Below are positions 43 to 11,674 of a DNA stretch of 13,085 bases, in pieces. The first letter of the stretch is position 1; every line of letters starts with the position of its first letter. The notes under the pieces are model-generated. The model was not told where the DNA came from. It did not search any database and saw only the letters and a program-made list of their open reading frames with translations. Both the position numbers and the translations under genes were made by a program. Origin of the DNA: an uncultured archaeon (lineage in GTDB: Archaea > Thermoproteota > Nitrososphaeria > Nitrososphaerales > Nitrosopumilaceae); NCBI GenBank assembly GCA_937896495.1, contig CALBNQ010000118.1:1-13085 (forward strand), read 5' to 3'.

Positions 43-2661
43 ATGAAATTCTGTTCTAGTTGTGATACCAAACTTACACAAAATTTAGCAGATGTTGGGG
101 CGCCAGGCATTTGTCCTAAATGCAATCCAGAATTAATCATACCAAGAAAGCCAACATATGGTTATAATTTTTCAGGTAGAACCAAACAATGTTCCAAAGG
201 TTGCGGTTCAGAAATCTATTGGGATGAAGAATTCAAATCAGATAGTGGAAAGTTTATCCCTATTGATTCAAGGACAGATGAACCACATAGATGTGATGGT
301 AACACTGAATCAAGCCAATCATACTATCCAGATGAAATCAAAAAAATTGCAAAAATAATTCCATCAGAATCAAAAATTGCAATATCAAAAGAAATTTTAT
401 TTGATATAAATAAAATTCCAAAATCATTAATTGAAAATGATTCAATAATTGAGAAAATTATCGAAGGACATACAAATGAAACATTAGGAATTATTCATTA
501 CGAAAGAAGAATAGCACCAGAGCCTGAAAAGATTCCACTAGATGAACTCAAAAATATATTATCTGAAAAAATTATTTCAGGATTAAAAAAATATGGTTTT
601 ACAGGCCTACTTCCGTTTCAAAAAGATTCAATTCATTCAATCCTTATGAGTAAAAACACCATAATTTCAGCACCTACAGGTTCAGGAAAAACTGAAGCAT
701 TTACCATCCCGATTTTGGAAAAGATTTTGAAAAATCATACTCCAGGAGTGTTTGCATTATTTGTATATCCATTAAATGCATTAATTGATGATCAAATTTC
801 CAAGGTTTCAGAACTAATTGATAAGTGTGGATTAAATGAAAAAATTGCAGCTTTTTCAATCCATGGAGGACAGAGTACAGAATACAAAAACATGATACTT
901 GCTGAATCAAATAAAAAAGCAATAATTATTGCTACAAATTTTGATTTTATCAACTATCATTTAATTTTACAAGATAAGAAATGGAATATTTTATTCAAAA
1001 ATGTAAAAATCATAGTAATGGATGAAGCACATTCTTACACAAGTTTTCATGGATCAAATGTGTATCACGTTCTTAAAAGAATGCAAAGACATATGGGAAA
1101 TATTCAGTTCATTGGGTCTTCTGCAACTTTAGATAATTCCAAAGAATTTTTTTCAAACATGTTTGAATTACCTGAAAAATCATTCTCATATGTAAAAAGT
1201 CAGTTTAGAAGAAAACAAAATATGCATATGTTCTTTATCATGCCACGAAAATATGGGCAAAGGTCTACAATGGAGTTATTGTCATCAATTTGTTACAAAA
1301 ATCAATCAACTCAATTAGTTTTCAGTAATTCCCATAATGATGCAGAATTTCTTGCATCAAATGTTGAAGAATCTAACAAAGGAATTAAAATTCAAATCCA
1401 TAGGGGAGGCCTTGATCAAAGTGTCAGAAAAATATATGAATCTCAAATGAAAGCAGGAGAACTTGATGTTCTTTCATGTACCCCAACATTAGAGTTAGGT
1501 GTAGATATTGGACATGTGGATGTAGTAATTTCAGCATTCAAAAGTGAATATGATTCATTTGTTCAAAGAATTGGACGTGCAGGAAGAAAAGGACAAAAAT
1601 CGTATTCCATATGTGTTTTTGATCCTGAAGATGCGACATGCCACTATTTTGCACGTCATATTGACGAATATCTTACACAAAATCACGTAATTCCGATTAA
1701 TAAAGAAAATCCAATCATTTCAAATAAACATATAGAATCAATTGAAATTGAAAAAAAATCATCTAAAGAATCAGACAAATCACAATTTTTTGATTTTGCA
1801 AACAGTGTAAATCTGCGTGGCACATCAGGAGAAATTGAAATTTACTCTAATTCCAAAAAAATAGGTACACGAAATGTACCAACAGGATATTATCAATTAC
1901 ATCAAAAAGCAATTTATCATTTTAATAAAATTAATTATGAAGTAGAAAATTTAGTGAAATTACAAAATATCACAAAAGCATATCTAAAAAAATCAATAGA
2001 AAAAGGAAAGAGAACAACACCGATTGTCAAAACTAAAATGGTACATACATCAAAGAAAGATGAAATTCACAAAGATATAATTTTTAAAAATAAAAAAATC
2101 CTATTACGATATGGAATCATCGAACTGAATAGAACAATTACAGGATATTTGAAAGGAAATTATAATGAAACAACAGATAAGTTTGAAACATTTAATGGAA
2201 ATTCAATTTCTGGGTGGAGTGATTTTCATTGGAAATCAAGACATTCATCAGTAGGAATCGAACTACCATCAGAGAGTATACCAAAAATTACATCAGAGTC
2301 AAAAAGTCCGATTATCCAAGATTCAAAAATTCATTCGATTGCACATGTGTTAGTTAATGCAAGTAAAATTTTAACGAAATCTGAATCAAATGACATTGAT
2401 GTCTATTATGAAAATGGAATAATCTATTTGTACGATAATTCATCAGATGGGTATAATGGATGTAGTAAAATTATTTATGATAAATTTGATAGTGTATTAA
2501 ATACATGTAATTCGATTCTAAATGATTGTGATTGTTCTAAAGGAAAGCAAGATGATTGGGAAGGATGTCCAAAATGTACGTTTACAACCAACTATTGTCA
2601 AACAAAAAATCGTCAATTATCAAAAAACAAGGCAAAAGAGTTCTTTTTAGCGTTCAAATAG
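43..2661 (+). CDS. DEAH-box helicase, MrfA/YprA/Hrq1-like, with N-terminal zinc-finger-like extension
   Basis: ATP-dependent superfamily 2 helicase, probably acting on DNA in repair. Seen in the 872-residue product: motif I APTGSGKT (about 210-217), DEAH (327-330), SSAT (359-362), PTLELGVDIG (481-490) and QRIGRAGR (508-515). The C-terminus carries a YDNSSDGYNG stretch and a cysteine cluster C829, C831, C842, C845, C852, resembling the DUF1998 region of Bacillus MrfA, a DNA-repair helicase. The first 85 residues hold two further cysteine sets (C4/C7/C24/C27 and C50/C54/H82/C84) that look like zinc-binding modules and are not part of the usual MrfA core. The ATG at 43 follows a T/A-rich box at about 22-32, and an in-frame stop lies at 4-6. 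It stands alone and converges on the next gene with a 7-nt gap. Helicase assignment is firm; the DNA-repair role is inferred from the family. Confidence 0.9.
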   Translation: MKFCSSCDTKLTQNLADVGAPGICPKCNPELIIPRKPTYGYNFSGRTKQCSKGCGSEIYWDEEFKSDSGKFIPIDSRTDEPHRCDGNTESSQSYYPDEIKKIAKIIPSESKIAISKEILFDINKIPKSLIENDSIIEKIIEGHTNETLGIIHYERRIAPEPEKIPLDELKNILSEKIISGLKKYGFTGLLPFQKDSIHSILMSKNTIISAPTGSGKTEAFTIPILEKILKNHTPGVFALFVYPLNALIDDQISKVSELIDKCGLNEKIAAFSIHGGQSTEYKNMILAESNKKAIIIATNFDFINYHLILQDKKWNILFKNVKIIVMDEAHSYTSFHGSNVYHVLKRMQRHMGNIQFIGSSATLDNSKEFFSNMFELPEKSFSYVKSQFRRKQNMHMFFIMPRKYGQRSTMELLSSICYKNQSTQLVFSNSHNDAEFLASNVEESNKGIKIQIHRGGLDQSVRKIYESQMKAGELDVLSCTPTLELGVDIGHVDVVISAFKSEYDSFVQRIGRAGRKGQKSYSICVFDPEDATCHYFARHIDEYLTQNHVIPINKENPIISNKHIESIEIEKKSSKESDKSQFFDFANSVNLRGTSGEIEIYSNSKKIGTRNVPTGYYQLHQKAIYHFNKINYEVENLVKLQNITKAYLKKSIEKGKRTTPIVKTKMVHTSKKDEIHKDIIFKNKKILLRYGIIELNRTITGYLKGNYNETTDKFETFNGNSISGWSDFHWKSRHSSVGIELPSESIPKITSESKSPIIQDSKIHSIAHVLVNASKILTKSESNDIDVYYENGIIYLYDNSSDGYNGCSKIIYDKFDSVLNTCNSILNDCDCSKGKQDDWEGCPKCTFTTNYCQTKNRQLSKNKAKEFFLAFK

Positions 2662-2668
2662 GCACGAA

Positions 2669-2869
2669 TTATTTAGAATCAAGTTTATTGTTAAAATCAT
2701 CAACTTTACGATTGTATTCATCAATTTCTGCATTTTCTAAATCAATAGAATCTTCAAATAACTCAGGATTTTCTTGTTGTGCTTTTTTCATTAATTTTTT
2801 AAAAGTATCAGGATCATCTTTTTGTAAATCTAAAAGAATTTTTCCAATAGATTCATCGATGTTGCTCAT
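2669..2869 (-). CDS. Small acidic helical protein, unknown function
   Basis: Encodes 66 residues with no recognised domain. The composition is rich in D, E, K, N and Q, with a regular spacing of hydrophobic residues (I, L, F) in the first 40 positions that suggests amphipathic helices. There is no cysteine, signal peptide or membrane segment, so a soluble cytoplasmic protein is expected. The ATG at 2869 begins MSNIDES. No Shine-Dalgarno site is visible, and an AT-rich box (about 2881-2897) lies at a distance suiting a nearly leaderless transcript. It converges on the helicase gene. The gene upstream on the same strand is 200 nt away, separated by the candidate RNA. Small size and lack of recognised relatives limit certainty, but the reading frame is clean and the start is conventional. 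Confidence 0.65.
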   Translation of the reverse strand: MSNIDESIGKILLDLQKDDPDTFKKLMKKAQQENPELFEDSIDLENAEIDEYNRKVDDFNNKLDSK

Positions 2870-2890: not shown

Positions 2891-2911
2891 CATATTTTTG
2901 TTATTCTAAAT

Positions 2912-3017
2912 AATAACGAGAGTACATGGAAAACACCTTTCTACAGGACGTTTCCATAACATGAAGTGTTTTCCAACCAATCACTCTACGACGCAGACAT
3001 GACGGTTTCTCGTTATT
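2912..3017 (+). ncRNA. Candidate structured RNA with a three-way junction
   Basis: Two perfect 10-bp helices nest in a 106-nt segment with no convincing reading frame. The closing stem P1 pairs AATAACGAGA (2912-2921) with TCTCGTTATT (3008-3017). A G-U pair at 2922/3007 extends it only if the plus strand is transcribed. P2 pairs TGGAAAACAC (2927-2936) with GTGTTTTCCA (2966-2975) and can continue as TTT/GAA past a bulged C. A weak P3 (2976-3006) is bounded by ACC/GGT and then TCA/TGA. The helices abut without spacers except for TACA at 2923-2926, which gives a compact junction. By hand count GC is about 41%, above the AT-rich flanks. A TATA-like box sits about 26 nt before it, and T-rich sequence follows P1. 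A second TATA-like stretch at 3033-3041 would suit the opposite strand. No C/D or H/ACA boxes, SRP, RNase P or tRNA signature was recognised. Confidence 0.55.
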
Positions 3018-3052
3018 TCTATTAAGAGAATATACTATTTAACAATGATCTA

Positions 3053-3078
3053 TATTTTCACATGAAAATAATTTTCAT
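3053..3078. repeat. Overlapping inverted repeats of a TTTTCA half-unit
   Basis: TATTTTCA (3053-3060) and TGAAAATA (3063-3070) form one dyad around CA. ATGAAAAT (3062-3069) and ATTTTCAT (3071-3078) form a second perfect dyad around one base, sharing the middle arm. The run touches the stop codon of the minus-strand gene ending at 3075. It could be a 3' hairpin for that gene or a protein-binding site for the RNA promoter region. Confidence 0.45.
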
Positions 3079-3269
3079 TGTCGAGTGCATCCGCATTTTA
3101 CATAAACCACTTTGAATTCACCATCAGTCTTTATGTTGTGTGAAATTGGCCTATGACAATATTGACAATTAACAAATCCATGATATTCTTCAACTGGGAT
3201 CATTTTGTATTTCCAAGATTTTGTAGAATCATCCCAATACACAGAATTAATCTCAGTTGGGTCACTCAT
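3075..3269 (-). CDS. Small zinc-ribbon-like protein, unknown function
   Basis: Encodes 64 residues. Two cysteine knuckles are visible: C35-x2-C38 (NCQYCHR) and C59-x-C61 (KCGCTRQ at the extreme C-terminus), with H39 and H44 between them, so one bound metal ion is plausible. The N-terminal half has aromatic residues (YWDD, SWKY, EEYHGF) and no membrane segment. The ATG at 3269 is directly preceded by AATATTTGAGAT, an element also found before the start codons at 3718 and 4527. No Shine-Dalgarno site is present. The family is not recognised; nucleic-acid binding would be a guess from the cysteines alone. Confidence 0.65.
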   Translation of the reverse strand: MSDPTEINSVYWDDSTKSWKYKMIPVEEYHGFVNCQYCHRPISHNIKTDGEFKVVYVKCGCTRQ

Positions 3270-5134: not shown

Positions 5135-5221
5135 ATGCAAAATATGAAATTGGGAATTAAAATTGCAATAATTATAGCTGTTGCAATAATCGCTCAAATT
5201 TTTGGCAACATATTGTTTTAG
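5135..5221 (+). CDS. Possible 28-residue membrane peptide
   Basis: A short frame from ATG 5135 to TAG 5221 encodes 28 residues: a small basic start (MQNMKLGIK), then an unbroken hydrophobic stretch of about 18 residues (IAIIIAVAIIAQIFGNILF). It fills the gap between the divergent starts and ends of minus-strand neighbours and overlaps the stop codon of the gene at 5218-5757 by 4 nt. Small single-helix proteins of this kind are common in archaea. No strong Shine-Dalgarno or TATA box is seen, so it could be a chance frame in AT-rich DNA. Confidence 0.35.
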   Translation: MQNMKLGIKIAIIIAVAIIAQIFGNILF

Positions 5222-5757
5222 AGTATGCTTCGTTGCCCATATTTTTTGAATGTGGTATTTGCACTGTTTAACAAAGTAAAGACATTAGGGTATTGGGAAT
5301 TTTCTAACAAGTCATTTTTAATCAATGTTAAATGATGTCTATTTTGTCTAATTTGCCTCATAATTTTTGATTTGGATGCTTTGAGATATTTTAAATCACT
5401 TAGATTGGCTGAGATATCACATAGTTTGATCAGTTTTGCATCAAATGATGCCTCTTTGAGTTGTTTTGTGAATTCTTTATTCCTCTGTTTTCTGGGAATG
5501 GTCATATCTTTAGAGATTGAAGATACCAATACTGCAACAACATTGCCAAATTTTTGATATACATCATCAAATGTAGTGTCAGTATTTTCAAGTACATTAC
5601 ATAGCCATCCAGCACATAAAACATCATTATCAATTACACCCAAACCTTTGAGTCTATTTACTACATCTTCTAGATGTTGAGTATACGTGATACCGTTAGT
5701 AGTTTTTCCAGCATGACAATCTTTGGCAAACAATTCTGCATTTTCAATTAATTCCAT
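5218..5757 (-). CDS. MESH1/SpoT-type HD-fold protein with altered metal site
   Basis: Encodes 179 residues matching the (p)ppGpp/NADPH hydrolase domain of MESH1 and SpoT along its length: a CHAGKTTNGITYTQHLEDV start, an ENTDTTFDDVYQKFG block, then AKLIKLCDISANLSDLK. In active members the metal is held by a histidine (here H28), an H-D pair and a later aspartate (here D114). The H-D pair of the usual LLHDTVEDT block is C53-N54 here, and the catalytic E-D is E57-N58. H28, E57, D114 and N118 are kept. The sequence therefore suggests a non-catalytic binding protein or one with changed chemistry, rather than a normal hydrolase. No synthetase domain is attached and no (p)ppGpp synthetase is seen nearby. 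ATG 5757 is the start, with a TTATAAT box centred about 30 nt upstream. Confidence 0.85.
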   Translation of the reverse strand: MELIENAELFAKDCHAGKTTNGITYTQHLEDVVNRLKGLGVIDNDVLCAGWLCNVLENTDTTFDDVYQKFGNVVAVLVSSISKDMTIPRKQRNKEFTKQLKEASFDAKLIKLCDISANLSDLKYLKASKSKIMRQIRQNRHHLTLIKNDLLENSQYPNVFTLLNSANTTFKKYGQRSIL

Positions 5758-6735: not shown

Positions 6736-8082
6736 GTGGACACTTTTGGAAAAACAACAGTAAAAGTAATTCCTCTAGATTTATCTGAAAACCAATTTCA
6801 AATTTATAATAAAATTTCTCGTAACTATTCACATTCATTTCTTTTTGAATCATTATCAGGTCCAGAGGTATTGGCTGAAACATCAGTAATGGGATTTGAT
6901 CCAAAAATAATTCTAAAAGGATATGCAGATAAAGTCGAAATTATTGAAAATAATTCAATTAAAACTATTTCAACTACAGAACCTTTTGAAGAATTAAAAA
7001 AATTATTAGGAAAATGTGATAATCAAACATATAGGTATCTTGGAGGTGCTGTGGGCGTAGTAAATTATGACGCAGTTAGATTAGTTGAAAAAATTTCTAA
7101 ATCACAAGAGTCAACAGAACCATTAATGGAATTTGGAATATATGATGATGGAATAATTTTTGATAATTTACAAAAAAAACTATTTTATTTTTATCATGAT
7201 GAAAATAGATTTAATAAATTTATTATGAATGATGATTCATTTGGAGAATTTCATTCAAGTGAAGTTATTCCAAATATGAATAAAGAAAAATTTTCAGAGA
7301 TTGTAAACAAAGCAAAGAAGTTAATTCATGATGGAGATATTTTTCAAGTTGTATTATCTAGAAAATTTGCTTTTGATGTATCAGGGGATAACCTCACATT
7401 ATACAAAACATTACGAAAACTAAATCCGTCACCCTACATGTATCACTTAAAACAAGATTTTAAAACAATTATTGGTGCATCACCTGAAATGTTAGTAAGA
7501 ATAACAAATGATAAAGTAGAAACATTTCCAATTGCAGGGACTAGGAAAATTACAGACAATGAAGAAAAAAACAATCAATTATCTAAAGAACTGATCAATG
7601 ATGAAAAAGAATTGGCAGAGCATACAATGCTGGTAGATCTTGGAAGAAACGACATTGGAAAGGTTTGCAAATATGGAACCGTACATCCAGAATCACTTAT
7701 GCAAATAAAACGATTCAGTCATGTTCAACATATTGTTAGTCATGTTGTAGGGAATTTATCGCCTGAAAATGATATGTTTGATGCGTTTCAGGCAGTATTT
7801 CCAGCAGGTACAGTTTCAGGTGCTCCAAAAGTTAGAGCTATGCAGATTATAGATGATTTAGAGACAGAAATTAGAGGACCTTATGCAGGAGCAGTAGGTT
7901 ATTTCTCATATAATGGATGTTGTGACTTTGCAATTGCAATTAGAAGTATATTCATCGAAAATGATAAAGGGTTTGTACAGTCAGGAGCTGGAATTGTATC
8001 AGATTCTATTGCAGAAAACGAGTTCAAAGAAACAGAGCACAAAGCAGGAGCAATGCTTCAAGCATTAAAGGAGACAAAATGA
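6736..8082 (+). CDS. trpE: Anthranilate synthase component I
   Basis: Converts chorismate to anthranilate, using ammonia delivered by TrpG; first step of tryptophan synthesis, in the cytoplasm. The product has 448 residues. The N-terminal part has SFLFES (34-39), the place of the LLES tryptophan-binding motif, so feedback inhibition is likely kept. The chorismate-binding half shows PSPYMYH (231-237), IIGASPEM (245-252), PIAGTR (265-270), [13 protein letters not shown] (294-306), [11 protein letters not shown] (355-365), PYAGAVGYF (382-390) and GAGIV (417-421). The start is GTG 6736; the only nearby ATG (6732) is out of frame, and no in-frame ATG occurs before the conserved region. The frame stays open upstream to 6670 but without a standard start. 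It overlaps trpG by ATGA. PabB is the closest alternative, but the operon settles it. Confidence 0.96.
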
Positions 8083-8675
8083 AATTTTTAATTATAGATA
8101 ATTATGATTCGTTTGTGTATAATATTGCCCAGTACTTGGGAGAATTAGGAGTAGATTGTGATGTGATTAGAAATGACAAAATTACAATACCGCAAATTAA
8201 AGAAAGAAATTATGATGCAATAATTATTTCTCCAGGTCCTGGAACTCCAGAAGACAAAAAATATTTTGGAGTATGTTCAGAAGTGATTAGTTCAATGGGA
8301 GAACAAACACCAATATTTGGAGTTTGTCTTGGACATCAAGGAATTATTGCAGCATTTGGAGGTAAGGTAACTAATGCAGAATGTGTTAGACACGGTAAAA
8401 CAAGTCCTGTAAATCATACAGATGCAAAATTATTCAATGGTGTAAAAAATCCATTTAGGGCAACGCGGTATCATAGTTTAGTTGGAGATAAAACAATAAT
8501 TCCTGATGTATTACAAGTGATTGCAATTGCAAAAGATGATGGAGAAATAATGGCAATCCAACACAAAGATCGTTTAATTCAAGGAGTACAATTTCATCCA
8601 GAATCAATTATGACTGAAGATGGTAAAAAAATTCTAGGGAATTTTGTATTACAAGTAAAGGAGCAAAAAAAATGA
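8079..8675 (+). CDS. trpG: Anthranilate synthase component II (glutamine amidotransferase)
   Basis: Class I glutamine amidotransferase that frees ammonia from glutamine for TrpE. The product is 198 residues, typical for a stand-alone TrpG not fused to TrpD. It opens with IIDNYDSFVYNIAQYL (5-20), has the oxyanion region SPGPGTPED (51-59), the nucleophile C83 in GVCLGHQ, and the triad partners H173 and E175 in FHPES. The ATG sits inside the ATGA overlap with the trpE stop, and its own stop overlaps trpD in the same way, so translation is likely coupled along the operon. The same subunit may also serve PabB if the cell has one; that cannot be told from here. Confidence 0.96.
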   Translation: MKFLIIDNYDSFVYNIAQYLGELGVDCDVIRNDKITIPQIKERNYDAIIISPGPGTPEDKKYFGVCSEVISSMGEQTPIFGVCLGHQGIIAAFGGKVTNAECVRHGKTSPVNHTDAKLFNGVKNPFRATRYHSLVGDKTIIPDVLQVIAIAKDDGEIMAIQHKDRLIQGVQFHPESIMTEDGKKILGNFVLQVKEQKK

Positions 8676-9718
8676 TCTCAGATTTGATTTCAAAACTACA
8701 AGAAAAAACAGATTTGAGTTATGATCAGATGAACAATATCATGACTGATATGCTATCTGGAAAAACTACAGATATCGAAAATATAGATTTTCTATCAAAA
8801 CTTGCACAGAAAGGAGAAACCGATGACGAATTATTAGGAATGCTAGATAAGATGCAAGAGTTTTCCCTCAAGATAGATACCCAGAATTCAGGGACAGTTA
8901 TTGACATGTGTGGTACAGGAGGAGATTCACTCCAGACATTCAATGTTTCTACTACTGCATCATTTGTAGTAGCAGCATCAGGTGGAATAGTTGCAAAACA
9001 TGGAAATCGTTCTAGTTCTGGAGTTTCAGGAAGTGCAGATATTTTTGAATATTTTGGATATGATTTAGGTTCAAATCCAGCTCAAATTTCAAAAGTTTTA
9101 CAAAAATTCAATATTTGTTTTATGTTTGCACAAAAATTTCATCCTGCAATGAAATATGTATCATATGCAAGAAAACAGTTGGGAACTAGAACTGCATTTA
9201 ATTTACTTGGACCATTATCTAATCCTGCAGGAGTAAAAAATCAATTGATTGGTGTTTTTTCAATTGAATATCTAGATAGACTTCCTGCAATTCTCAAAAG
9301 AAAAGGTGCACAAAATATTATGACAGTTCGTTCAGATGATGGAATGGATGAATTTTCAACTAGTTCAACAAACAGAGTGTGTATTTTACGAAACGATAAA
9401 GTATTGATGAATGCAATTGATCCAGAAGTAGTAGGATTACATAAATCAACATTGGCAGATATTCAAATTAAATCAAAACAAGATGCAATAGAATCATTTG
9501 TAGGAGTGTTAAACAATACTGCAAATCAAGCCATGATTGAAACCACAGCATTAAACGCAGCTGGAGGGTTAATTGTGGCAAATATTGCAGATAATTTTGA
9601 ACAAGGAGTGGAAATTGCACTAAAAACAATCAAAGATGGAAAAGCATTTTCATTGCTTGAAAAATTTGTTGAGGAGACTGGAGATATTTCAAAACTAAAG
9701 GAGATTACAGATGGCTGA
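8672..9718 (+). CDS. trpD: Anthranilate phosphoribosyltransferase
   Basis: Joins anthranilate and phosphoribosyl pyrophosphate to give N-phosphoribosyl-anthranilate. The product is 348 residues, the normal family length. Seen: the glycine-rich PRPP loop GTGGD (81-85) followed by NVSTTAS, the KHGNRSSSGVSGSAD segment (109-123), and RTAFNLLGPLSNPAG in the middle. The paired acidic residues of DDGMDEFS, which bind magnesium in the family, are present. The N-terminal helical domain (1-70) is the usual dimer region. ATG 8672 overlaps the trpG stop as ATGA, and the 3' end overlaps trpC by 8 nt. Thymidine/pyrimidine phosphorylases share the fold, but the motifs and the operon fit TrpD. Confidence 0.96.
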   Translation: MISDLISKLQEKTDLSYDQMNNIMTDMLSGKTTDIENIDFLSKLAQKGETDDELLGMLDKMQEFSLKIDTQNSGTVIDMCGTGGDSLQTFNVSTTASFVVAASGGIVAKHGNRSSSGVSGSADIFEYFGYDLGSNPAQISKVLQKFNICFMFAQKFHPAMKYVSYARKQLGTRTAFNLLGPLSNPAGVKNQLIGVFSIEYLDRLPAILKRKGAQNIMTVRSDDGMDEFSTSSTNRVCILRNDKVLMNAIDPEVVGLHKSTLADIQIKSKQDAIESFVGVLNNTANQAMIETTALNAAGGLIVANIADNFEQGVEIALKTIKDGKAFSLLEKFVEETGDISKLKEITDG

Positions 9719-10487
9719 GAATATTTTAAGAAAGTTAGTAAACAATTCCCAAATGGCAATAGATGACGGAACATACGACGTAGATTGTAATTTAGAAAAA
9801 TCAAGTAAAGATTTCAAACAAATTATTAAAACAAATCCTCATGCAACATTACTAACTGAAGTAAAATTTTCATCGCCATCACTGGGAAAAATTAGGACAC
9901 AAAGTGATCCTGCAAATATTGCAAAACAGATGATTAGAGGAGGCTCTAAAGCATTATCAGTATTAACTCAACCACACCTATTTCATGGATCTCCAGAATA
10001 TTTCATGAAAGTTAGGAATGCAGTGGATGTGCCATTGTTAATGAAGGATATCATGATTGATAAAATTCAGATTGATACTGCAAAAAAAATTGGTGCAGAT
10101 TACATGTTAGTGATTCAATCCCTATTTGATCAAAAGTTTTTGTCAGATATTGATGAATTCATTTCATATGGTCATAAACAAGGACTAGAAATTTTACTCG
10201 AAGTTCATACCAAAGATGAATTTACAAATGCTCTAAAAACTGAGGCAGACATCATAGGTATCAACAACAGAAATTTAGATACATTGGATATTGATCTAAA
10301 AACTACCGAAACAGTTCTTCAAGGATATGATGAATCTAGAATTATTTTATCTGAAAGTGGAATTCAAACACCTGAAGATATTCAGTATCTAAAAAAATGT
10401 GGTGCAGATGCATTTCTAATAGGTTCAAGCATTATGAAAAGTGATAACATTGAAGAACAGGTAAAAAAATTGGTGAATGCATATTGA
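9711..10487 (+). CDS. trpC: Indole-3-glycerol-phosphate synthase
   Basis: Closes the ring of carboxyphenylamino-deoxyribulose phosphate to indole-3-glycerol phosphate. The product is 258 residues with a TIM-barrel layout. All expected catalytic positions are visible: E50 and K52 in [10 protein letters not shown]112 in LLMKDIM, E164 in LLEVHT, N185 in GINNRNL and E215 in LSESGI; the C-terminal phosphate-binding segment is FLIGSSIM. It is a stand-alone enzyme with no TrpF domain fused. The ATG at 9711 lies inside the 3' end of trpD (ATGGCTGA overlap), and its TGA stop overlaps the TTG start of trpB. The substrate comes from TrpF, whose gene is not in this window. Confidence 0.96.
10472..10476 (+). 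promoter_or_regulatory. Shine-Dalgarno site deciding the trpB TTG start
   Basis: GGTGA lies 7 nt before the TTG at 10484 and can pair with the usual archaeal 16S rRNA tail (complement of GGAGGTGATC). It supports use of the non-ATG codon within the trpC/trpB overlap. Confidence 0.45.
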
Positions 10488-11674
10488 AATATCCAAAAGA
10501 TGGTAAATTCGGAGAATTTGGTGGAAAATATATTCCAGAAACTCTAGTTCCGGCAATTGAAGAGTTGGAAGAAAATTATCTAAGATTCAAAAATGATAAA
10601 AAATTCAAAAAAGAATTAGATTATTATCTCAAAGTGTATGCAGGAAGACCAACACCTCTATACTATGCAAAAAATTTATCTGAAAAAATTGGCGGAGGTA
10701 AAATCTATCTCAAAAGAGAGGACTTGTTACATGGTGGCGCCCATAAAATTAACAATACATTGGGACAAGCATTACTTGCAAAAAAAATGAACAAGAAAAG
10801 AATTATTGCAGAGACAGGAGCAGGTCAACACGGGGTTGCAACTGCAATGGCATGTGCAGTTTTAGGATTAAAAGCTGAGGTATACATGGGATACAAAGAT
10901 ACCATTAGACAAAAGCTAAATGTATTTAGAATGAATATGTTAGGTTCTAAAGTTCATCCAGTAAAATCAGGTTCAAAGACACTCAAAGATGCAATTAATG
11001 AAGCAATTCGTGATTGGATTACAAATGTAGAAGATACATACTATTTGTTAGGCTCTGCAGTTGGGCCTCATCCATATCCTGTAATGGTTCGTGATTTTCA
11101 AAGTGTAATTGGAAACGAAATAAAATCTCAAATGAAAAAAATTAACAATAAGATTCCAGATTATACCATTGCATGTGTTGGTGGGGGATCTAATGCCATT
11201 GGTACATTTTACCCTCTAGCTGATACTAATTCTGAAATAATAGGAGTGGAAGCTGCAGGTCATGGATTAAAATCAAACAAACATTCAGCAACATTGTCAG
11301 CAGGTTCCAAAGGAGTGATTCACGGAATGATGACATATCTATTACAAGACAAAGAAGGACAAGTTACTGAGACCCATAGTATATCGGCAGGATTAGATTA
11401 TCCTGGAGTGGGCCCTGAGCATTCATTTTACAAAGACACAAAACGCGTAAAGTATCATTCAGCAACTGATAAAGAAGTGATTGATGCATTTCTATTACTT
11501 ACTAGAACTGAAGGAATAATTCCTGCATTGGAATCATCTCATGCAATTGCAGAAGCTGTAAAGGTTGCAAGAAAATCAAAATCATCAGAATCAATTGTAG
11601 TTACACTATCAGGTAGAGGAGATAAGGATGTAGAAGAAGTGCAGAATTATTTGAATACACATAACAAGAAATAG
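10484..11674 (+). CDS. trpB: Tryptophan synthase beta chain (TrpB1 type)
   Basis: Pyridoxal-phosphate enzyme that joins indole and serine to give tryptophan. The product has 396 residues. Seen: the PLP lysine K88 in GGAHKINN, the catalytic E110 in [22 protein letters not shown] (142-154), the phosphate loop GGGSNAIG (233-240), [10 protein letters not shown] (304-313) and LSGRGDKD near the end. The length and motifs fit TrpB1, the form that normally works with TrpA, and not the longer TrpB2. The start is TTG 10484, sharing TTGA with the trpC stop. No in-frame ATG occurs before the conserved [14 protein letters not shown] segment, so the TTG is well supported. Unusually, trpA does not follow; the next gene encodes an unrelated secreted protein. 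Confidence 0.96.

Follow-up and report, generated by a model that had tools for sequence, protein, structure and literature searches.

A probable gene for a small folded RNA shared by many ammonia-oxidizing archaea of the Nitrosopumilaceae

The window, by which we mean the whole 13,085-nucleotide stretch of archaeal DNA under study, contains a gene for a DEAD-box helicase with an MrfA zinc-binding domain and a cluster of overlapping frames for tryptophan biosynthesis. The best NCBIfam matches of the cluster are anthranilate synthase I and II, trpD, trpC and trpB, those to component I and trpC falling below the curated cut-offs. A further short protein resembles part of RelA/SpoT, at a score far below the curated cut-off. 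Between the helicase gene and small reading frames lies the interval 2912-3017, which is very probably the gene for a short, folded, non-protein-coding RNA common to many ammonia-oxidizing archaea (Table 1).

Table 1. Features of the RNA locus and of its surroundings in the window
Feature	Position	Strand	Basis or remark
DEAD-box helicase with MrfA zinc-binding domain	43-2661	+	convergent with the RNA
66-aa reading frame, possible read-through partner	2669-2869	-	starts 43 nt after P1; ORF list
Predicted ncRNA transcript, ~105 nt	about 3014 (5′ end) to 2907-2912 (3′ end); entry 2907-3015	-	cmsearch match and promoter/3′ columns
Covariance model match (cmsearch)	2910-3018	-	93.5 bits
T-rich 3′ end, putative terminator	2905-2916	-	T in 76-82 of 98 copies, last four model positions
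P1 closing helix, 3′ arm UCUCGUUAUU	2912-2921	-	
P3 helix, 3′ arm GUGUUUUCCA	2927-2936	-	perfect complement and 101-copy pairing
Near-invariant strand of P3, UCAUGUUA; candidate site for pairing or binding	2957-2964	-	CATGTTA in 96/101 copies, TCATGTTA in 91/101
P3 helix, 5′ arm UGGAAAACAC	2966-2975	-	perfect complement and 101-copy pairing
P2 arm ACCGUCAUGUCUGC-GUC-GUAGAGUGAUUGGU	2976-3006	-	fold and covariation
Near-invariant P2 tip UCUGCGUCGUAGA	2985-2997	-	CTGCGT[ACT]GTAG in 88/101 copies
P1 closing helix, 5′ arm AAUAACGAGA	3008-3017	-	perfect complement of 2912-2921
P1 5′ arm, conserved portion UAACGAGA	3008-3015	-	
TATA box TTAAATA	3036-3042	-	each base in same column in 88-98 of 100 copies
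Upstream promoter element GATCA	3046-3050	-	each base in 85-92 of 100 copies
Short protein like part of RelA/SpoT	5218-5757	-	far below curated cut-off
Tryptophan biosynthesis cluster	6736-11674	+	overlapping frames

The initial annotation had seen here a structured RNA built on two perfect 10-bp helices, and this observation as a whole is confirmed. A script check found both helices intact and in place: AATAACGAGA (2912-2921) and TGGAAAACAC (2927-2936) are exact reverse complements of 3008-3017 and 2966-2975, respectively. Two such pairings were held to be improbable by chance, and so they proved, since two nested 10-bp helices never arose when the 106 nt were shuffled 20,000 times with dinucleotide composition preserved; any perfect 10-bp helix arose in 75 of the 20,000. 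Along the window, such a nested pair is contained in 2 of 1,297 overlapping 120-nt frames, and both of these frames are at this site. The GC content, said to exceed that of the flanks, does so strongly on the left and modestly on the right (0.38 for 2900-2999 vs 0.22 for 2800-2899, and 0.28-0.33 for frames in 3000-3199).

Comparison with related sequences reveals abundant compensatory changes, in support of a structured RNA. An alignment of 18 sequences (A2) was made with MAFFT before any model was built. In this alignment 99.0% of 593 cells pair, and 8 of 33 pairs exhibit double changes. None of 500 shuffles reached any of five measures, and slid controls paired 40-57%. RNAalifold applied to the same alignment gives the same fold with one extra outer P1 pair (34 pairs, 8 with double changes). 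A larger alignment of 101 copies (A3) gave 93.7% paired cells and double changes in 24 of 33 pairs, with slid controls at 40-53%, counts that lean toward the structure because this alignment was fitted to its own covariance model, as A2 was not. The 101 copies came from a search of 100 source sequences, excluding duplicates, the weak loci L098, L099, L101 and L102, and the loci of chance blastn matches (L028-L030, L032-L037). L003 contains Ns, and was excluded both here and from A2 and A1; the latter, an alignment of 30 sequences, has the P3 3′ arm misplaced in one subgroup and was unused for counts. One member of A3, L097, was later classed with the second type of RNA described below, and is also contained in model R2 and in all the 101-copy counts. 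RNAs resembling that of the window are termed type I.

The initial annotation named no strand; the RNA strand is the minus strand. Folding this strand gives -37.0 kcal/mol with z = -5.6, a value equaled by none of 200 shuffles. G-U cells outnumber A-C cells by 86 to 2 in A2 and by 409 to 49 in A3, and thus the modeled strand is the RNA. A plus-strand RNA was considered and rejected. Its fold is weaker (-25.8 kcal/mol, z = -3.1, equaled by 1 of 200 shuffles), and its cells pair at 84.8% (A2) and 82.7% (A3) vs the 99.0% and 93.7% of the minus strand.

A check for protein-coding frames found none conserved across the interval: 58 of the 101 copies have no frame open throughout, and the commonest open frame is found in 18. 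A peptide within the RNA (ATG TTA ...) was rejected, being unconserved by eye. ARAGORN returned no tRNA or tmRNA gene in the window, and neither C/D boxes nor a K-turn plus ACA box were noticed by eye, the formal scan for such motifs being that of Rfam. As the initial annotation had anticipated, no RNA class was matched. Rfam 15 gave 4 matches in the window at E ≤ 5, all under threshold and none within the interval. The type I loci L007 and L090 and the type II locus L412 likewise gave matches that were all below the gathering threshold, the best reaching 21.2 of 86 bits.

The RNA folds into three helices. P1, formed by UAACGAGA and UCUCGUUG, is the closing stem of the molecule, and 97.2% of its cells are paired in the 101 copies. 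At one of its pairs, the G-C of the window copy corresponds to A-U in another copy from this genome, on contig C208. The third arm (ACC/GGT, TCA/TGA), previously described as weak, is a true helix, P2, and is not weak, having 13 model pairs on the minus strand with G-U included. Much of the covariation is located in P2, below a tip UCUGCGUMGUAGA that is nearly fixed (88/101 copies). For three pairs of the tip (columns 28-30 with 43-45), the predominant base pair is present in 96, 99 and 98 of 100 copies. P3 begins with the base GGAAAAC/GUUUUCC, followed by the internal-loop strand UCAUGUUA and then a small apical helix. UCAUGUUA is nearly fixed, while the strand facing it varies in both length and sequence. 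The predicted openness of UCAUGUUA differed between the three copies for which it was computed. It is largely open in L090. In the window copy the first part is open, with unpaired probabilities along CAUGUUA of 0.96, 0.99, 0.84, 0.96, 0.34, 0.25 and 0.24, and in L007 the final four bases are mostly paired (unpaired 0.15, 0.12, 0.14 and 0.01).

The TATA-like box and T-rich DNA pointed out in the initial annotation are both present, the box on the minus strand, although the run of T in the window copy is interrupted (TTATTATTTAG). Flanking sequence was sufficient upstream for 100 of the 101 matches and downstream for 98. Counting from the first base of P1 in 100 copies, GATCA occupies -35 to -31 and TTAAATA -27 to -21, followed by ATTTT at -18 to -14 (83-93 of 100) and aCgTA at -12 to -8 (62-93). 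A TATA-like sequence is counted in 96/100, a figure that permits any place from -38 to -14, and it is the column counts that support the fixed spacing. The other flank columns examined (63 before and 25 after) are little conserved. GATCA is also present before the TATA box in G245, a genome of the genus Nitrosotenuis.

Archaeal TATA boxes lie around 26 bases upstream of the start, which would place the start of transcription here on the first bases of P1. Transcription itself, and both ends of the transcript, are predicted from the DNA. The full promoter pattern, with 3 mismatches allowed, matches 11 times in 8 genomes, and 10 of the 11 directly precede a copy of the RNA; the eleventh (G064:78438) lies just ahead of an apparent protein frame, and the reversed pattern matches once in the 8 genomes. 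GATCA is a possible site for a dedicated regulator, the full pattern being almost confined to type I RNA in these genomes.

The distribution of the RNA was studied with blastn and with covariance models. By blastn, 27 of 37 genomes of the same genus (its own included) match at E < 1e-9, and none of 24 genomes of other genera match below 0.03. With E ≤ 1 as the cut-off, the model R1 matched 67 of the 95 genomes of the genus, and 45 of the 56 near-complete ones. The remaining 28 of the 95, incomplete genomes among them, give no type I match, and thus either the RNA is not needed by all or it goes unrecognized there. Among 300 genomes sampled evenly across the order R1 matched 55, all of the same family, with G240 and G303 detected only at E = 0.64 and 0.18. 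A broader model, R2, gave matches at E ≤ 0.1 in 89 of the 250 genomes of the family, 67 of them belonging to the genus and the other 22 to different genera. Four of these 22 matches are weak (E from 1e-4 to 0.05). By sequence and predicted fold those in G355, G358 and G322 are classed as type II, and that in G333 (L387), which resembles neither type, is probably due to chance. R2 also matched 71 of 300 evenly sampled genomes from the class, all in Nitrosopumilaceae. These covariance searches, run as even samples of the order and class and as scans of the genus (95) and family (250), with stricter filters throughout at the cost of weak matches, found no relative outside Nitrosopumilaceae in the sampled genomes.

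A search using a DNA pattern returned 15 viral stretches and at least 120 genome stretches. Among the matches listed (95 loci, 15 viral and 80 genomic), the model confirms 22 loci with 23 matches at E ≤ 2e-6. Viral or bacterial homologues were thereby rejected among the matches listed, none of the 15 viral loci being confirmed and all the confirmed loci being archaeal by title. The assignment to the Nitrosopumilales lineage fits, since these 22 loci are titled Nitrosopumilus, Nitrosotenuis, Nitrosopumilaceae, Thaumarchaeota or 'archaeon'. Matches at L217 (other strand, E = 0.16) and L176 (E = 0.66) are taken as chance.

Genomes of the genus that bear the RNA have 1-4 matches each. The genome of the window (G000) contains three copies, on contigs C118 (the window), C208 and C209, the latter two being C208:1159-1268(+) and C209:1839-1948(-) (L038 and L100). 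Each is nearest to a different copy in genome G086, with identities of 0.91, 0.81 and 0.76, and the identity between different paralogue groups of the two genomes is 0.50-0.78. This pairing of the copies suggests that the paralogues are older than the split between these genomes. CGUGUUA replaces CAUGUUA in the C209 copy and also in the nearest match of that copy in G086 (L105).

The weak R2 matches led to a second type of RNA, which has in common with type I the closing stem, the base of P3 and the layout of the promoter, and differs in its outer arms. Type II was found at L400-L429, L383, L386, L388, L390, L384 and L097 (e.g., L412:1501-1636), and measures about 103-141 nt in 32 loci. P1 is similar to ACGAGGA/UCCUCGU, with ACGAG or GCGAGG in 32/32, and the P3 base is similar to GGAAAAC/GUUUUCC, with GGAAAAC or GGGAAAC in 24/32. 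The TATA promoter has a layout like that of type I by eye. P2 is usually long, and the tip of P3 is a hairpin GAT[AG]GAAG[CT]ATC in 16/32, with variants in the rest; CATGTTA is found in none of the 32. Eight examples folded with z from -3.0 to -6.1. In an alignment of the 32 loci (A7), pairs are kept in 97.5% and 10 of 24 exhibit double changes, with none of 500 shuffles as high; these counts lean toward the structure because the alignment was fitted to its own model, six of whose training sequences it includes. That model, R3, was built from these six type II sequences with P2 left unpaired. R3, run with the same stricter filters as the searches above, matched 89 of 400 genomes in an even sample of the order at E ≤ 0.1, a good part of these being cross-matches to type I copies; one match outside the family (G143, E = 0.05) is taken as chance. 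No type II was found in G000, whose two R3 matches are type I copies.

The genes next to the 101 copies belong to many unrelated clusters, with the adjacent gene frequently on the opposite strand. Such varied neighbors indicate a stand-alone gene, and not the leader of one gene. The commonest neighbor is an 84-aa protein with no Pfam match (25 cluster members), which lies upstream or downstream depending on the locus; in L021 its frame is at 362-616 after the RNA start. A member of the helicase cluster is found in five other RNA neighborhoods. A cis-acting leader, i.e., a riboswitch or attenuator of a downstream gene, would here control the 66-aa frame, which is on the same strand a short distance downstream and has no Pfam match. 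L103, L118 and L120 have frames of 65-66 aa about as far from the RNA, a likeness in size and distance. The diversity of downstream genes largely refutes a leader, an RNA that closes upon itself before T-rich DNA also speaks against it, and we regard it as improbable. Less probable still is a small mobile DNA element of the MITE kind, with P1 as its terminal inverted repeats. The repeat is perfect and the copies occupy many genomic places at low number, but the conserved promoter lies outside the repeat amid flank columns that are otherwise little conserved, compensatory changes occur in three separate helices with a strong G-U strand bias, and the G000/G086 paralogue groups are old and diverged.

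Our preferred interpretation, to which we give a probability of about 0.5, is that the locus encodes a stand-alone regulatory RNA acting in trans, in which UCAUGUUA pairs with target RNAs. The minus-strand gene would be driven by an archaeal promoter of its own (GATCA, TTAAATA, ATTTT, aCgTA), with transcription beginning at the first bases of P1 and stopping in T-rich DNA just past P1. With such a start and end the RNA would be a closed three-way junction of P1, P2 and P3, of ~105 nt. Both types would have a common core made up of P1, the junction and the P3 base, probably bound by one protein, and the working surface would be UCAUGUUA in P3, perhaps together with the tip of P2. UCAUGUUA most likely pairs with target RNAs and would so control their translation or stability; a start codon lies within its complement UAACAUGA. 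A gene that stands alone, has its own promoter and gives a closed RNA with a near-fixed loop strand suggests action in trans, which, like protein binding and mRNA pairing, is inferred.

Possible targets were sought in 7 genomes as sites complementary to the strand. The complement CTAACATGA was not enriched, its 102 sites comparing with 106 of the reversed pattern, although G000 taken by itself has 15 vs 8. Inspection of 90 of the 102 sites revealed no start-codon target common to several genomes, and 12 groups of homologous sites had no clear shared start. One inspected site, L293, is a copy of the RNA itself. A 55-aa frame in three genomes (L320, L329, L367) is open for 17-20 codons upstream of the ATG, which is thus not shown to be a start, and one group of five sites lies deep within a conserved coding frame. 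The single sites L299, L306 and L328 may be real starts, with frames of 164-441 aa, and do not recur in the other genomes of the set.

The lack of enrichment, the lack of a shared target start and the partial pairing of the strand make it nearly as likely that the stand-alone RNA serves as a protein scaffold, decoy or ribonucleoprotein core and pairs with no target, its invariant stretches being sites of protein binding or tertiary contact. The tip of P2 is conserved in stem and loop alike, as in a recognized hairpin; part of CAUGUUA is predicted to be paired in two of the three copies; and type II retains P1 and the P3 base yet lacks CATGTTA. The variable strand opposite the near-fixed UCAUGUUA, however, is also expected of a pairing seed. 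A more specific protein partner is suggested by Y RNAs, which have paired ends, a U-rich tail and paralogues, as has this RNA, and bind the Ro60 (TROVE) protein. TROVE (PF05731) was found in none of the 60 genus genomes searched, in a search for which Deinobacterium chartae was the one positive among 14 control genomes, and no Y RNA was among the Rfam matches. An RNA of this kind is very improbable here.

Ammonia-oxidizing archaea of the Nitrosopumilaceae rank with the most abundant cells of the ocean, and earlier surveys of ocean small RNAs may contain these transcripts. A full-text literature search, with subscription papers and preprints outside its coverage, found no earlier description of the RNA. 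The family and its two-type layout appear to be undescribed; a lineage-specific structured small RNA is of a known kind. A dedicated promoter, together with a shape maintained by compensatory mutation across genera, is strong evidence at the sequence level for an RNA-based function. Two features of a structured trans-encoded small-RNA gene are found here in the sequence, i.e., a conserved structure with compensatory changes, and an apparent promoter and 3′ end of its own that are independent of the neighbors. The gene supplies defined probes, a target for deletion and covariance models with which existing metatranscriptomes can be re-read.

A 2012 review describes intergenic trans-encoded sRNAs in archaea such as Methanosarcina mazei and Haloferax volcanii, reports that in vitro one M. 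mazei sRNA masks its target at the predicted ribosome binding site and start codon, and states that no thaumarchaeota organism had been analyzed for sRNAs (PMC3432209). The type I RNA resembles these in being a small intergenic RNA gene, and differs in that it matches no Rfam family and in that the search described above found no target. Tan1 (Thalassoarchaea ncRNA 1) is reported as a 229-nt RNA from metagenomes of Thalassoarchaea, within the Euryarchaeota (PMC5069720). It is similarly a conserved structured RNA of planktonic marine archaea with no function assigned in that account; by this description it differs from type I RNA, which is ~105 nt and belongs to the Nitrosopumilaceae.

A broader interpretation, which we put forward tentatively and at somewhat less than even odds, is that the two types belong to a modular superfamily of RNAs, so far known only in Nitrosopumilaceae. 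This would comprise at least two types with similar TATA promoters, a shared protein-binding core of P1 and the P3 base, and exchangeable outer arms. The arms would be UCAUGUUA and UCUGCGUMGUAGA in type I, and a hairpin like GAUGGAAGCAUC together with a usually long P2 in type II. If true, this would be a new class of ribonucleoprotein regulator in ammonia-oxidizing archaea, in which type II replaces type I in some genomes. Six genus genomes with no type I match (G009, G082, G091, G096, G104 and G118) carry type II at E ≤ 1.1e-11, and in G095 both types are present on one strand, 334 bases apart.
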